A DNA stretch of 63,469 nucleotides from positions 1 to 63,469 of the forward strand of contig JANXQO010000115.1 of NCBI GenBank assembly GCA_025353485.1, read 5' to 3'. This stretch comes from Chitinophagales bacterium. GTDB taxonomy: Bacteria > Bacteroidota > Bacteroidia > Chitinophagales > Chitinophagaceae. The translations under genes and the position numbers were made by a program. The notes under the pieces were generated by a model. The model had not been told where the DNA came from, ran no database searches, and saw only the letters and a program-made list of their open reading frames with translations. Positions 4,521-9,018 of the stretch are shown here, in pieces (positions within the stretch are counted from its first letter, which is position 1; each line of letters begins with the position of its first letter).

Positions 4521-5369
4521 TCATTCTAAGTGGTATTCTTTTTTTATTAATTGGATAAGATTAGAGGCTGTCTTTTTGTTAGTTTCAAATACCCCAAGAT
4601 TATTCTTAATTAAAAATTCATAGTTCATAAGATTGTTAAGGTACTCATCTAAATAGGCAAGATTTAATTTTATTATTATAGAACTATCGGGCATAGCTTT
4701 TATATTATTAGAAGATTGAAGTGTTTTTATTACAGACCTTGCATCAAATAATTTTTGACCCAACCTGCTATTGTAAACGAATGCTTCACCTTCATAATCA
4801 TCTCTTTTTGCCATACGCCTTACCTGCTGATCATAAGCTTCAATAGAATCAACAATTTTCCGGTTATTGATGAGGCGTAAGCCACCGGAATTTTTTAACT
4901 GATCTAATGTGCCGCTGTTTTGAAAAAAGCTTCTGCTACCATAAAATTCCCTGGATAAATTATAAACCATCAACGTAACGAGAGAAGTGTTTTGAACACC
5001 TAATATGTTTATTGTTGAATCCAATGCAGCAATTTTTTGCAGCCTGAATTTTTTTCCTTTAGAAAGCTCTAAAGTATCCAGCGCAAGATCTTTTACAAGG
5101 GATTGCATATATTGCTTTTCCCGGTTTCTTTCAACAATATGTTCCCGCCAATTTTCCGCAACAAACCCAAGAAACACTGCAAGAAATAACATAAAAAATT
5201 CAAGCAGATATTCAAACCATTTCTTTTTATGTGTTACGTGGTGTGGATGTTTGTGTACTTCCATTGTTGAAGTTTGTGGTTGGTAGTTTGTAGTTGGTAG
5301 TTCATCAATTACAGGCTGTACGTTCTCTTCTGTTAACTGTTCTTCCGTTATATTTTCTTCTTCACTCAT
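4521..5369 (-). CDS. array paralog A: His-rich membrane-anchored protein
   Basis: 282 residues and last gene of a tandem array. The N-terminus (1-35) is low-complexity and acidic. Residues 37-51 hold MEVHKHPHHVTHKKKW, a His/Lys patch that should stay cytosolic, then a transmembrane helix (about 54-72) and AEN.RE. A long, mostly helical domain follows, predicted outside the membrane, with the array-wide motif GTLDQLKNSGGLRLI and R.IVDSI..YD, and a KKEYHLE tail. Its ATG overlaps the preceding gene by 8 bases (ATGAGTGA). The layout resembles DUF6090-type Bacteroidota proteins, but function is unknown. Confidence 0.75.
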   Translation of the reverse strand: MSEEENITEEQLTEENVQPVIDELPTTNYQPQTSTMEVHKHPHHVTHKKKWFEYLLEFFMLFLAVFLGFVAENWREHIVERNREKQYMQSLVKDLALDTLELSKGKKFRLQKIAALDSTINILGVQNTSLVTLMVYNLSREFYGSRSFFQNSGTLDQLKNSGGLRLINNRKIVDSIEAYDQQVRRMAKRDDYEGEAFVYNSRLGQKLFDARSVIKTLQSSNNIKAMPDSSIIIKLNLAYLDEYLNNLMNYEFLIKNNLGVFETNKKTASNLIQLIKKEYHLE

Positions 5370-6204
5370 TTTCTAAATGATATTCTTTTTTAAGAAATTT
5401 AATCAGGTTAAACGCACTTCTTTTTACAGACCCGTTGGTATTTGTATCCGAAACAGCACGCAACCTAACTGATATGCACTCATTGATCAATACGTTTAAG
5501 TTTTGATTATCTAATCTTATAGTTTGCTTTTGAACAATCTTCTTTTTATAAAACAATGAATCGTACAACGTATGTAATAAATCATTTCCAATAACCGTTT
5601 TATTCAAAGCTTCTGTAAAATCGTGTGTTAATTCATTTGTTATACCTCTTCGTACTTCTAATCTTCTCATCAGGCGATCATAATCTTCAATTGAATCTAC
5701 GATTTTTCTATTCGTGATAAGACGCATACCACCCGAACTTTTTAATTGTGTGATAGTTCCGTCGTTAGGAAAAAACATTATCTGAACTGTGCTTTTTCGC
5801 AAATGTTGATATACGCTCACGGGCATTTCAGTGTTCTCTGATCCTGACAGTGATAAAATCGCCGAATCAATATTCTGTATTCTTACGTTTGCAGATTCTG
5901 TAACTGTATTAAGCCAGACAGTATCCAAGCGCAAGTCATTTAATAATGATTTAATGAATTGCTTTTCACGATGTGTTTCAACTACGCCTTCTCTAATATT
6001 TTCCGCAACAAAGCCAAGAAAAACAGCAAGAAATAACATAAAAAATTCAAGCAGATATTCTCTCCATTTCTTTTTGTGTGTTATGTGGTGTGGATGTTTA
6101 TGTACTTCCATATTTTCAGTTTGAAGATTAGGGTTTGTAGGTAATAGCTCAGAGGCGTTGTTGTCGGTTGACTTTTCCTGATGTATGTTTTCTCCGTCAC
6201 TCAT
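5362..6204 (-). CDS. array paralog B: His-rich membrane-anchored protein
   Basis: 280 residues with the array architecture: variable acidic N-terminus, MEVHKHPHHITHKKKW (32-47), transmembrane helix (about 50-68), then the motif GTITQLKSSGGMRLI with NRKIVDSIEDYD, and a KKEYHLENE tail. The 5' segment through the membrane helix is nearly identical at DNA level to its neighbours, while the domain after it is strongly diverged. Its end overlaps paralog A by 8 bases; upstream, 8 bases separate it from the ORF6N gene. A membrane-tethered sensor or assembly protein is possible but not shown. Confidence 0.75.
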   Translation of the reverse strand: MSDGENIHQEKSTDNNASELLPTNPNLQTENMEVHKHPHHITHKKKWREYLLEFFMLFLAVFLGFVAENIREGVVETHREKQFIKSLLNDLRLDTVWLNTVTESANVRIQNIDSAILSLSGSENTEMPVSVYQHLRKSTVQIMFFPNDGTITQLKSSGGMRLITNRKIVDSIEDYDRLMRRLEVRRGITNELTHDFTEALNKTVIGNDLLHTLYDSLFYKKKIVQKQTIRLDNQNLNVLINECISVRLRAVSDTNTNGSVKRSAFNLIKFLKKEYHLENE

Positions 6205-6212
6205 TTTCTACA

Positions 6213-6776
6213 TTAAGATTTATTAAATCCAATTCTTTTTCTTTCATCCCATTTTCTTTGTGCAGCTTTTTCATCTAATAAATTTTCCATTGCATTGTAA
6301 ATCTGGTTTAGCTGTACATCGTGTTCGCCTAATTTTTCTCTTATTTCTTTCATTTGTTTTTTTAAATCACTTTGCGTAAGAAAAATTTTTCTTACTTCTA
6401 TAAAAGCACGCATAATGGCAATATTCATATTAATCGCTTTATCTGAATTGAGTATGCCACTTAGCATGGCAACTCCCTGCTCTGTGAAAGCATAAGGCAA
6501 ATATCTCGTTCCGCCTCTGCCTTTTGAGGTTTCAATTTGCAACCTCAAAGGTTTGTCACTTTTTTCTAAGGTTTCAAATTGAAACCTCAAAACTTCAAAC
6601 TCTTTTTGAGTAAGCTGAAACATAAAATCTTTGGGAAATCTTTTGCTGTTACGCTTTACAGCAAGGTTAAGCGATTTTGTTTGTGTTTCGTACAATGCTG
6701 CTAAATCTCTGTCCAGCATAACCCGTTCGCCTCTTATTTCATAAATTCTGGTTTGTACGGTTTGTATAATGTTCAT
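6213..6776 (-). CDS. ORF6N domain protein (replaces body of an array gene)
   Basis: 187 residues. The ORF6N DNA-binding domain spans roughly 8-110 (IYEIRGERVMLDRDLAALY, RFPKDFMFQLT, LPYAFTEQGVAMLS), followed by a helical, probably coiled-coil C-terminus. ORF6N proteins are typical of phages and of orphan mobile genes in bacteria. It sits inside the array exactly where the rest of paralog C should be: upstream is a 62-codon N-terminal stub, downstream the array's conserved TAGAAAATGAGTGA junction resumes. No recombinase or terminal repeats are visible. It is probably co-transcribed with the array; a regulatory role there is inference. Confidence 0.85.
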   Translation of the reverse strand: MNIIQTVQTRIYEIRGERVMLDRDLAALYETQTKSLNLAVKRNSKRFPKDFMFQLTQKEFEVLRFQFETLEKSDKPLRLQIETSKGRGGTRYLPYAFTEQGVAMLSGILNSDKAINMNIAIMRAFIEVRKIFLTQSDLKKQMKEIREKLGEHDVQLNQIYNAMENLLDEKAAQRKWDERKRIGFNKS

Positions 6777-6792
6777 ATAAGTTTACTTGTTT

Positions 6793-6981
6793 CTAAAAAA
6801 TATTATTTAAGAAATATTCTCCCCATTTCTTTTTATGTGTGACGTGGTGTGGATGTTTGTGTACTTCCATATTTTCAGTTTGTGGTTGGTAGTTTGTAGT
6901 TGGTAGTTCAGAAATATTTTGATCTTCTGTTGACTGTGGGCTATCGTCTGTTGACTGATTTATGTTTTGTTCTTCACTCAT
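6793..6981 (-). pseudogene. array paralog C: N-terminal stub
   Basis: 62 codons reproducing only the constant head of the array family: acidic N-terminus, MEVHKHPHHVTHKKKW, then GEY. After GEY the sequence departs from the family (FLNNIF then stop), so the transmembrane helix and outer domain are lost. DNA identity to paralog E continues through GGGGAGAATAT and stops there. Its ATG keeps the 8-base ATGAGTGA overlap with the preceding gene. It may still be translated as a small cytosolic peptide and may couple translation to the ORF6N gene. Confidence 0.75.
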
Positions 6982-7840
6982 TTTTTAAATGATATTCTTT
7001 TTGAATCAAGGCAATTAATTTTTCTGTACTTTGTTCCACATTTTTATAATTCCTTTCATCCTGTATTGTATTGAATTTTTGATGGAATAAAAAGTTCAGG
7101 TATTCATTTAAGTAAGCAGTATTTAATTTTGCGGAAGGCGCATCATTGAACAAATTAGTCGTACTGCCACTCCTATCTTTTTTATAAATAGGCAACAGCT
7201 CAATAGCATTAAGCATTTTCTCAACCATTTCGGAGCCATGCCTTTGATTGTCTGTATATGCTTCACGCCAATATTCCAGCCGTGCCCATTGCATATCATA
7301 GGCTGCTATGGAATCAACAACATTTCTTTTTCGGATAAGCCGCAAGCTCCCGGAATTTTTTAACTGATCTATAGTGCCGGTATTTCGCCTTATATGCCTG
7401 TCCCACAAAGCTCTCCGCATATTGTTATGTACAGCTCCAGGCACTTCAACCGCCCTGTTGTTTTTTTCAAAGAAATCAAAAATCGAATCAATGGCCTGCA
7501 CTCTTTCTTCTTTTAAAGGAAAGCTTGCATTTAAAATAGCAGTATCTCTTTCGAGGTCCCGCACAAAACTTTGCATAAACTCCTGTTCCCGCTGGTGTTC
7601 TACACTATGCTCTCTTAAATTCTCTGCCAGAAAACCGAGAAATACGGCAAGAAATAACATAAAGAATTCAAGCAGGTATTCTGTCCATTTCTTTTTATGG
7701 GTTATGTGGTGTGGATGTTTATGTACTTCCATATTTTCAATTTCTGATTTCTGATTTTCAATTTCTGATTTACTGACAGGTTGCGATGGCAGTTGATCGT
7801 TGTCCGTTGATTGATCTTCTATATTTTGTTCTTCACTCAT
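6974..7840 (-). CDS. array paralog D: His-rich membrane-anchored protein
   Basis: 288 residues from the ATG at 7840; a longer frame upstream exists but the conserved array start MSEEQN and the 8-base overlap with paralog E fix this start. N-terminus has a short internal repeat (SEIENQ/SEIEN), then MEVHKHPHHITHKKKW, a transmembrane helix (about 55-72), the motif GTIDQLKNSGSLRLI with RNVVDSIAAYD, and a QKEYHLKNE tail. The outer domain is helical and poorly conserved with its siblings. It is followed by the stub of paralog C, overlapping 8 bases. Confidence 0.75.
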   Translation of the reverse strand: MSEEQNIEDQSTDNDQLPSQPVSKSEIENQKSEIENMEVHKHPHHITHKKKWTEYLLEFFMLFLAVFLGFLAENLREHSVEHQREQEFMQSFVRDLERDTAILNASFPLKEERVQAIDSIFDFFEKNNRAVEVPGAVHNNMRRALWDRHIRRNTGTIDQLKNSGSLRLIRKRNVVDSIAAYDMQWARLEYWREAYTDNQRHGSEMVEKMLNAIELLPIYKKDRSGSTTNLFNDAPSAKLNTAYLNEYLNFLFHQKFNTIQDERNYKNVEQSTEKLIALIQKEYHLKNE

Positions 7841-8708
7841 TTTCCAAATAATATTTGTTTTTGAAATACGCAATCAAACCGGCAGCTTTTGTTTGCAGTT
7901 GCAGCAATATCCGTTTCTGACCTGCTATTGCGTTTTTATAGCGCAACAGTTCATTAAAATATTTATTCAATAAAGGCTTATCATAAGAAAGTAATAACGG
8001 TAATTCAACAATACTGCTATCGCTGCCTGCAATAGCTTTAGATAAATAACGGTTAGCCTCGAAATCTAAAAGCATGCTGAAGGTGCTTCGCACAAGATTT
8101 TGGCTTTCCTGAAAATAAGTATAGTGGTAATCCTGGTAATCCCTTACCTGATTATCATAAAGGATGATGCTGTCTTTGTCTTCCCTTGGCAAAAGGCGGA
8201 AGCCACCTGCATTTTTTAGCTGGTTCAGGGTTCCGTCTGAAAAAGATACCGAAAGATTTGTTCTTGAATTTTTTGCAATGGGCAGCAGGCACGAAGTGGA
8301 CTTCCAATTTTTTTTAATTGTATCATAACATTGAAAAAGATTTTTTAAAGCATCCAGCTTTACATTGTCATTTTCAATAATTTTTGCAAACGTAGCAGTA
8401 TCTGTATTTAGATCGTGGTAAAAAGATTCAATGTATTGCTTCCCTTTTTCTTTTTCTACAATGGTTTCCCTGATATTCTCAGCAACAAAACCAAGAAACA
8501 CGGCAAGAAATAACATGAAGAATTCAAGCAGATATTCTCCCCATTTCTTTTTATGTGTTACGTGCTGTGGATGTTTGTGTACTTCCATGTTTTCTAATTT
8601 GGGATGTATGGTTTGAGATTGCGAATCAGTAAGAGATTTTGAGTTCTCTTCTCGTGACTGTGGACTGTTGTCTGTTGGCTGTTCTTCTATATTTTGTTCG
8701 TCGCTCAT
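7833..8708 (-). CDS. array paralog E: His-rich membrane-anchored protein
   Basis: 291 residues, first gene of the array and so likely nearest the promoter. It has the shared head (MEVHKHPQHVTHKKKW, one His changed to Gln), transmembrane helix (about 59-76), then GTLNQLKNAGGFRLL with a degenerate R..DSIILYD, and a KNKYYLENE tail. The outer domain is the most diverged of the set. The 62-base spacer upstream separates it from a divergently oriented zeta-toxin remnant. Function unknown. Confidence 0.75.
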   Translation of the reverse strand: MSDEQNIEEQPTDNSPQSREENSKSLTDSQSQTIHPKLENMEVHKHPQHVTHKKKWGEYLLEFFMLFLAVFLGFVAENIRETIVEKEKGKQYIESFYHDLNTDTATFAKIIENDNVKLDALKNLFQCYDTIKKNWKSTSCLLPIAKNSRTNLSVSFSDGTLNQLKNAGGFRLLPREDKDSIILYDNQVRDYQDYHYTYFQESQNLVRSTFSMLLDFEANRYLSKAIAGSDSSIVELPLLLSYDKPLLNKYFNELLRYKNAIAGQKRILLQLQTKAAGLIAYFKNKYYLENE

Positions 8709-8770: not shown

Positions 8771-8860
8771 ATGCCAACAATTTATATAATAGCAGGTTGT
8801 AATGGTGCAGGTAAAGATATTTTTAACTTTGAGGTATATAATAAATTAAATAAAAAATGA
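8771..8860 (+). pseudogene. internally deleted zeta-toxin-like kinase remnant
   Basis: A 29-codon frame begins MPTIYIIAGCNGAGK, the start and Walker A loop of Bacteroidota zeta-toxin-family kinases. The expected Thr and about 150 following residues are missing; the frame continues with DIFNFEVYNKLNKK, which looks like the end of such a protein. An internal in-frame deletion explains this. The stop overlaps the next start (ATGA), as in intact modules. It cannot be an active kinase. Confidence 0.65.
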
Positions 8861-9018
8861 GTACCTCAAAAAAACGGGAAGATCTTAGCCCTAAAATAAA
8901 AGCTGCTTTAGACAAAGCTATACAGAGAGTTATTGCGGAAGAAAAAGCCCGTAACGGTTATCTTATCATCTCCGACAATAAGGGTAATATTAAAAAAGTA
9001 GCTGCAAAAGATTTATGA
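8857..9018 (+). CDS. small partner protein of a zeta-like module (orphan)
   Basis: A 53-codon ORF starts at the ATG overlapping the remnant's stop. The product is charged and helical (KIKAALDKAIQRVIAEEKA) and ends with a beta hairpin-like NGYLIISDNKGNIKKVAAKDL. Small proteins with this pattern accompany zeta-like kinase genes in Bacteroidota and are presumed antitoxins or partners (recalled family pattern, not tested). The reading frame is intact although the kinase is deleted, so it may be retained for another role or be recently orphaned. Confidence 0.6.
   Translation: MSTSKKREDLSPKIKAALDKAIQRVIAEEKARNGYLIISDNKGNIKKVAAKDL

Follow-up and report, generated by a model that had tools for sequence, protein, structure and literature searches.

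How does a row of neighbouring genes come to share one almost constant beginning when the remainder of each gene has diverged strongly? The question is raised by a tandem array on the minus strand, at positions 4521-8708 of contig JANXQO010000115.1 from a Chitinophagales bacterium of the family Chitinophagaceae (assembly GCA_025353485.1); the whole stretch analysed, 63,469 nucleotides (nt) long, is called the window below. Four intact genes and one stub (unit C) lie there head to tail, running E, D, C, B, A in a single direction, which bears out the five copies named in a preliminary description of this DNA. In each intact protein, a linker of low conservation precedes a head of the form MEVHKHPHHxTHKKKWxEYLLEFFMLFLAVFLGF; the outer part contains a central GTxxQLKNSGG motif and closes with a KEYHLENE-like tail. 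The strong divergence of the outer parts, their central motif and their tail, all reported before, are present in the alignment. The comparisons below support separate histories of heads and outer domains, as far as these can be read from sequence, and we consider it highly probable that recombination between heads and outer domains is the evolutionary mechanism behind the array.

Heads and outer domains in the window

From MEV onward, the head DNA of the five units is 88-96% identical in each 51-nt half (E, 8487-8588, 102 nt; D, 7631-7732; the truncated head of C, 6813-6870; B, 6010-6111; A, 5163-5264; all on the minus strand). The shared 5' block is real, and its earlier wording as nearly identical was slightly strong. 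The same genome carries additional units on contigs C34 and C93; identity of the C34 head to those of A-E is 86-94% over the first half and 80-84% over the second half. For the four intact units, residues shared in the head (alignment columns 32-69) use the same codon in 135 of 176 cases, where codon usage predicts about 0.48. The same measure gives 59/104 (0.57, expected 0.45) in columns 70-100, 17/36 (0.47, expected 0.39) in columns 101-140, 57/124 (0.46, expected 0.37) in columns 141-185, 13/33 (0.39, expected 0.35) in columns 186-235 and 18/41 (0.44, expected 0.44) in columns 236-270. The tail (columns 271-288; 29/53, 0.55, expected 0.45) stands between head and outer part, like columns 70-100. 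The likeness of the heads exceeds protein constraint: their synonymous sites are unsaturated, and those of the outer domain are near saturation. The evidence from the window by itself is limited to these unsaturated sites of the heads. The nearest relatives of its outer domains lie in four other genomes (B, 59% identical, L039; D, 53%, G008; E, 48%, G016; A, 42%, G015).

Separate histories in related genomes

A profile of the four intact units matched 20 of 59 genomes, its own included; within the genus, 13 of 19 other genomes matched, with 1 to 24 matches each. The search for the cassette in other Chitinophagaceae, suggested earlier, returned 23 loci in a scan of species genomes, both in this family and in other Bacteroidota. 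Long arrays hold 13 members (L062, genome G018), 12 (L063, G007) and 9 (L064, G005). Short units in which the tail follows directly on the head and the middle of the outer domain is missing are found at L063:7252-7623 and L060:2874-3227. From 135 profile rows 116 members were kept, after removal of rows below 60 bits, of loci L040, L041, L042, L054 and L055 (taken as contig copies) and of identical proteins; one genome might still be split over two labels. Of these members 96 were full enough for the head and outer-domain tests, and pairs with an outer identity of at least 0.40 were excluded from the tests within and between genomes. Member counts are dominated by a few genomes, G018, G005 and G007 here and G173 and G097 in the DUF6090 set treated below. 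Heads were assigned by simple motif to the classes K (52-codon region, HKHPHH..THKK), Hd (HHHPDLHHKKK), Hv (HHHPH-VEKK) and others.

Within the 116-member set, different species carry outer domains that are as much as 98% identical behind clearly different heads. As close pairs we took two units of different genomes whose outer domains are at least 80% identical; significance was set at p<0.01. Some members occur in more than one pair, and the pairs are therefore not independent. Of 27 close pairs in the window family and DUF6090, 11 had a head that diverged significantly more than the outer domain, and none had the reverse. In the window family the head was the more divergent part in 7 of 13 pairs (4 of these p<0.01), and in DUF6090 in 9 of 14 (7 of these p<0.01), all 14 being drawn from the three genomes G083, G093 and G155. 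For example, a unit of G007 with an Hd head (L063|7608) and a unit of G018 with an Hv head (L062|10637) differ at 16/573 nt in the outer domain and at 15/84 in the head. The corresponding values are 21/564 and 18/84 between G016 (L080|1836) and G007 (L063|3245), and 0/420 and 16/135 between G093 (L102|9891) and G155 (L094|6414). Since the head is otherwise the best-conserved part, its greater divergence in such pairs requires recombination. Ordinary tandem duplication, with a constrained head, diverged outer domains and no need of recombination, would agree with the conservation of the head protein across genomes and with the Hv heads, which have no within-genome excess. However, it does not account for heads that diverge more than near-identical outer domains in 11 of 27 pairs, for the jumps in identity along the DNA or for outer domains that carry no genome signal, and we regard it as scarcely credible.

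In DNA profiles of nine chosen pairs, identity upstream of MEV was at the level of unrelated DNA in all nine. In five of them (rows 1-3, 5 and 6) it was lower in the head and mostly 90-100% from about 60-180 nt past MEV to the gene end; the other four had a faint contrast, or a head as similar as the rest (X43/X48). The two parts also differ in where their nearest relatives are found. For 76 full units of the window family, from genomes with at least three, the nearest head lay in the same genome in 26.8 cases (ties shared) and the nearest outer domain in 4, with 7.5 expected from set size in both. The head tree needs 41 changes of genome label, compared with 52.1 (49-55) over 30 shuffles, and the outer tree 56, compared with 52.2 (47-57). 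The synonymous likeness of K heads is 0.687 within genomes and 0.547 between them, a difference reached in none of 2000 shuffles. Divergence of head and tail between genomes is not equal and units keep no fixed orthologous order, so the condition named beforehand as speaking against shuffling was not seen. Both concerted evolution of the head and swapping of the outer-domain cassette, which had been put forward from the window, draw their support mainly from these relatives.

At 0.40 identity, the outer domains of the 96 units fall into 46 clusters, 24 of them present in at least two genomes and 4 with two members of one genome. The ratio of nonsynonymous to synonymous substitution rates (dN/dS) was sought in 53 orthologue pairs, 55-98% identical, and 39 gave a value: 34 lie at 0.06-0.29 and five at 0.30-0.93, four of the five in pairs at least 89% identical. 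The outer types are not fast-evolving and are mostly under purifying selection. Two further explanations can be weighed at this point. If the genes were dispensable and turned over by birth and death, with no repertoire under selection, stubs and head-to-tail deletions such as L063:7252-7623 would be left behind; the large copy-number differences in the genus, whose 19 other genomes have between 0 and 24 matches each, would fit as well. Against such turnover, most outer types are under purifying selection and 24 of the 46 clusters are found in at least two genomes, and we judge it improbable. Antigenic or phase variation, in which a silent store rewrites one expressed gene, is suggested by the constant 5' part and variable 3' part, an arrangement shared with known rewriting systems. 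On the other hand, the window holds four complete overlapping genes and one stub, and no separate expression site was seen in it; moreover, 34 of the 39 dN/dS values are low, and topology places the outer part probably in the periplasm and not on the cell surface. Variation of this kind is very improbable here.

The wider DUF6090 family

No window unit matches a Pfam or NCBIfam family above cut-off. The Pfam profile of DUF6090 (PF19578, cut-off 23.5 bits) lists no window unit at E up to 1 and matches 2 of 34 family members at E up to 0.1 (best 0.0016). A profile-profile alignment of the window family with DUF6090 sets in where the membrane helix ends and spans 206 columns, with a probability of 99.3 (E 3.6e-20). 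A phylum search with the window-family profile matched 24 of 148 genomes, the source genome included, with closer members and distant matches; the distant matches mostly start at profile position 76 or later, and all six that were scanned match DUF6090, five above cut-off (best E 4.8e-12). Judged by these profile comparisons, the outer domain of the window units is homologous to DUF6090. A DUF6090 search of 30 relatives gave no match, but 14 control genomes were silent as well, and the search carries no weight.

DUF6090 genes form arrays of the same design as the window array, a constant head with varied outer domains, under a different head sequence: 23 units in 20 kb at L098 (G173), 18 at L100 (G131, with mixed heads) and 15 at L093 (G097), some of these counts being cut by stretch ends. 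The heads are genome-specific, for example IREKLIASGSLTKYLLYAVGEILLVVIGILIALQVNNWNE in G097 and IRQKLLENGNLRKYFWYALGEILLVMIGILLALQVNNWNE in G182. The preliminary description knew of no described system with such a design. In the open-licence part of PubMed Central no paper naming DUF6090 or PF19578 was found and none was recognised as describing the array design. The design recurs in DUF6090 and is not confined to the window family.

DUF6090 gave 137 matches scoring 120 bits or more; the nearest-neighbour and likeness tests used 129 units, drawn from 10 genomes, and the trees 133. The nearest head lay in the same genome for 91.9 of the 129 units and the nearest outer domain for 13, with 18.9 expected. 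Synonymous likeness of the heads is 0.475 within and 0.392 between genomes (0 of 1000 shuffles). The head tree needs 33 changes of genome label, compared with 86.8 (81-91) in shuffled labels, and the outer tree 86, compared with 87.2 (83-92). Single events can be read from the arrays L101 (G083) and L102 (G093), which share a collinear run of seven units, with 96-100% identity in most 45-nt windows; their flanks are 67-93% identical on one side and 91.8% further out on the other. A complete unit at 7216-8116 of L102 is absent from L101. At 5506-5685, a stretch over one head is 78-96% identical between flanks of 98-100%, and the unit with this replaced head differs at 5/486 nt in its outer domain and at 21/135 in the head. 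The collinearity stops at a head, where successive windows fall to 93, 84, 58 and 49%.

Five DUF6090 units of 322-367 amino acids (aa) have family heads and parts past the head that, one pair apart, match no other member in BLAST (E <= 0.01). DUF6090-type heads sit on a 309-residue outer part at L094:9047-10129 and L103:8917-10017, which is 58% identical across the two genomes and has no other relatives in the set.

Mechanism, expression and possible function

We hypothesize that the array encodes, in operon-like fashion, a series of modular inner-membrane proteins that cross the membrane once. Each would consist of a constant head, formed by a short cytoplasmic histidine-rich segment and one membrane helix, and then one of many outer domains, helical, homologous to DUF6090 and probably periplasmic. 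Every intact unit has one hydrophobic region of membrane-helix length preceded by a positively charged stretch, and the positive-inside rule puts the outer part probably in the periplasm. In the predicted structures of D and E, which are 32% identical, long helices follow in the same order and the first continues from the membrane helix (predicted local distance difference test, 83.4 and 83.7); the two models drew on the same relatives. The conserved head would be the site where recombination joins heads and outer domains, so that heads are replaced, whole units are gained or lost and an outer domain comes to stand behind another head. As a result, the heads of one genome would grow similar in most classes, outer domains would circulate between species, and purifying selection would mostly retain each outer type. 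A tblastn search with unit D gave no match in plasmid or phage collections, and a family alignment search of viral contigs gave no confirmed relative, so no mobile carrier was found; nor was a recombinase family seen among the 25 listed of 77 families for 72 same-strand adjacent genes. Operon-like co-expression is suggested because the genes lie on one strand and overlap, and many outer domains would then be displayed at once on one type of anchor. Such a co-expressed repertoire is likely, and the mechanism and the repertoire together make a rather likely account.

Several points weigh against this reading. The head was the less divergent part in 6 of the 13 window-family pairs and in 5 of the 14 DUF6090 pairs, none significantly. 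Hd heads have a weak within-genome excess of synonymous likeness (0.720 within, 0.669 between, 100 of 2000 shuffles), and Hv heads have none (0.655 and 0.649, 531 of 2000). The outer domains of DUF6090 are also somewhat more alike within genomes at synonymous sites (0.408 compared with 0.374), and codon usage may therefore explain part of the excess in the heads. The majority of the genomes are metagenome bins, and the function and expression of the array proteins are read from sequence. No solved structural relative appeared: Foldseek gave no match at E <= 0.001 in the PDB or among viral models, and the family profile matched no PDB chain at E <= 1. Among the 25 neighbour families listed there is no toxin, and no toxin partner was found. 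The signal of concerted evolution is strong for K and DUF6090 heads, whose likeness, also at synonymous sites, is greater inside one genome than across genomes; it is weak for Hd and absent for Hv.

As to function, the use that we tentatively favour over others is a standing set of periplasmic domains that bind or neutralise varied incoming agents, such as toxins of competitors or phages, although the chance of an immunity-like use of this kind is below one half. Such a repertoire would act like a homogeneous polyimmunity locus. In a search of nine proteins with PADLOC, the units had only weak matches (best, unit A to PDC-S22, E 4.2e-4), and the gene with an ORF6N domain inside the array was the one strong match. 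None of 59 relatives matched the type VI sheath model PF05943, a result given no weight because the model may fail to detect the Bacteroidota type. A broader reading, of a modular Bacteroidota recognition system not described before, is somewhat doubtful. In this reading, species would share a pool of periplasmic domains, and dozens of these would be expressed together as a bacterial repertoire of constant and variable parts. The genome-specific anchor would be the recombination handle, the use would be defence or kin recognition, and assembly would proceed by homologous recombination without a dedicated recombinase.

The neighbouring genes bear on the main alternative, another use of the same recombining design. 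The proteins could be modular partners of transporters or sensor kinases, whose outer domains sense or bind ligands and whose head couples to a common membrane partner. Of the 72 adjacent genes, 6 encode amino-acid permeases. For 110 control genes the 25 families listed, of 153, include no such permease; as the control covers just this listed part, the contrast is indicative only. Five of these six permease genes directly adjoin units at L050:115-1470, L058:4551-5858, L062:8463-9770, L068:234-1673 and L070:782-2149. Four of the 72 contain histidine-kinase ATPase domains, and G016 has a head fused in frame to a histidine kinase core (HisKA and HATPase; L065:10323-11552). Sensors, too, often have outer domains built of long helices. 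Against this, most adjacent genes are neither permease nor kinase, the kinase neighbour in G007, G014 and G018 looks like one conserved gene, and up to 23 units stand in a row without a partner gene each. We hold the partnership with transporters or kinases to be unlikely, though it deserves to be kept in view. The neighbourhood of the G016 fusion resembles L072, where a unit is followed by a longer kinase.

In either case, long recombining arrays in several Bacteroidota are built of a membrane protein family without known function. Should the outer domains serve as a defence repertoire, the array would record the attackers met by the lineage, and specificity would be testable for each outer domain. 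Regardless of function, the arrays are a clean natural system for gene conversion and for cassette exchange between species, with different histories in the two halves of one gene.

Comparison with known systems

In polymorphic toxins and in pilin variation, a constant region provides the homology for exchanging a variable region. The window array would likewise use a constant region for exchange; it differs as a row of complete genes, seemingly all expressed and without a silent tip.

Polyimmunity loci are described, in the part of the account considered here, as tight same-strand arrays of paralogues with varying content (PMC3482391). The window family resembles the homogeneous loci of that account in its tightly spaced same-strand paralogues, with 8-nt overlaps in the window and tandem same-strand spacing also in relatives. 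It further resembles them in content that differs between relatives. No toxin gene was seen beside the paralogues among the 25 of 77 neighbour families listed. The family differs in that the window units match no known immunity family in Pfam or NCBIfam and lack a known cognate toxin. Nor does that portion of the polyimmunity description (PMC3482391) feature a constant membrane head whose recombination is separate from that of the variable part. The rAID orphan-immunity arrays of gut Bacteroidales, named for their associated recombinases in the excerpt consulted (PMC12247911), are defence-type arrays of the same phylum, as the window array may be; the window family has no recombinase among the 25 listed neighbour families.

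Layout of the array and minor features

The array opens with unit E (7833-8708, 291 aa), followed by D (6974-7840, 288 aa), both intact and recognised by open reading frame (ORF), alignment and family profile. The 8-base overlap ATGAGTGA, noted before at the junctions, is present at E/D, D/C and B/A. Unit C (6793-6981) is a stub of 62 aa with the linker and the first part of the head, and it breaks off within the head at about 6812. Between this break and B lies a gene with an ORF6N domain (6213-6776; PF10543, E 3.5e-34) in the place of C's outer domain; its strong PADLOC match, PDC-S05 (E 3.7e-54), is a candidate defence family. Behind it, the 14 nt TAGAAAATGAGTGA at 6197-6210 are identical to the usual unit end and overlap the start of B; we infer that they are a remnant of unit C's tail. 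Units B (5362-6204, 280 aa) and A (4521-5369, 282 aa) are intact on the same three grounds, and junction DNA adds to the evidence for A and D. An orphan C-terminal fragment of a further unit lies outside the array at 2133-2324, past its neighbouring genes; it is decayed and recognised by its reading frame and by a match of 24.9 bits to profile positions 231-287. All these features are on the minus strand. The ORF6N gene, this tail fragment and the units on C34 and C93 had been missed by the preliminary description.

The linkers before MEVHKHP (5265-5369, 6112-6204, 6871-6981, 7733-7840 and 8589-8708) have a 7-nt period in coding DNA, with heptamers that differ by unit. At lag 7 the window linkers give 0.472, compared with 0.305 (standard deviation, sd, 0.018) after codon shuffling, and none of 2000 shuffles reaches this value. 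The period is faint in pooled upstream stretches of K heads outside this genome (0.31 compared with 0.297, sd 0.010) and of Hv heads (0.35 compared with 0.321, sd 0.008), and some individual upstream stretches of relatives are high. It was omitted from the mechanism because there is little of it in the pooled relatives. Beyond unit E, at 8772-9018, a short plus-strand frame starting with MPTIYIIAGCNGAGK is followed by a 53-aa ORF; the two may be a broken P-loop (zeta-toxin-like) gene with a small partner.

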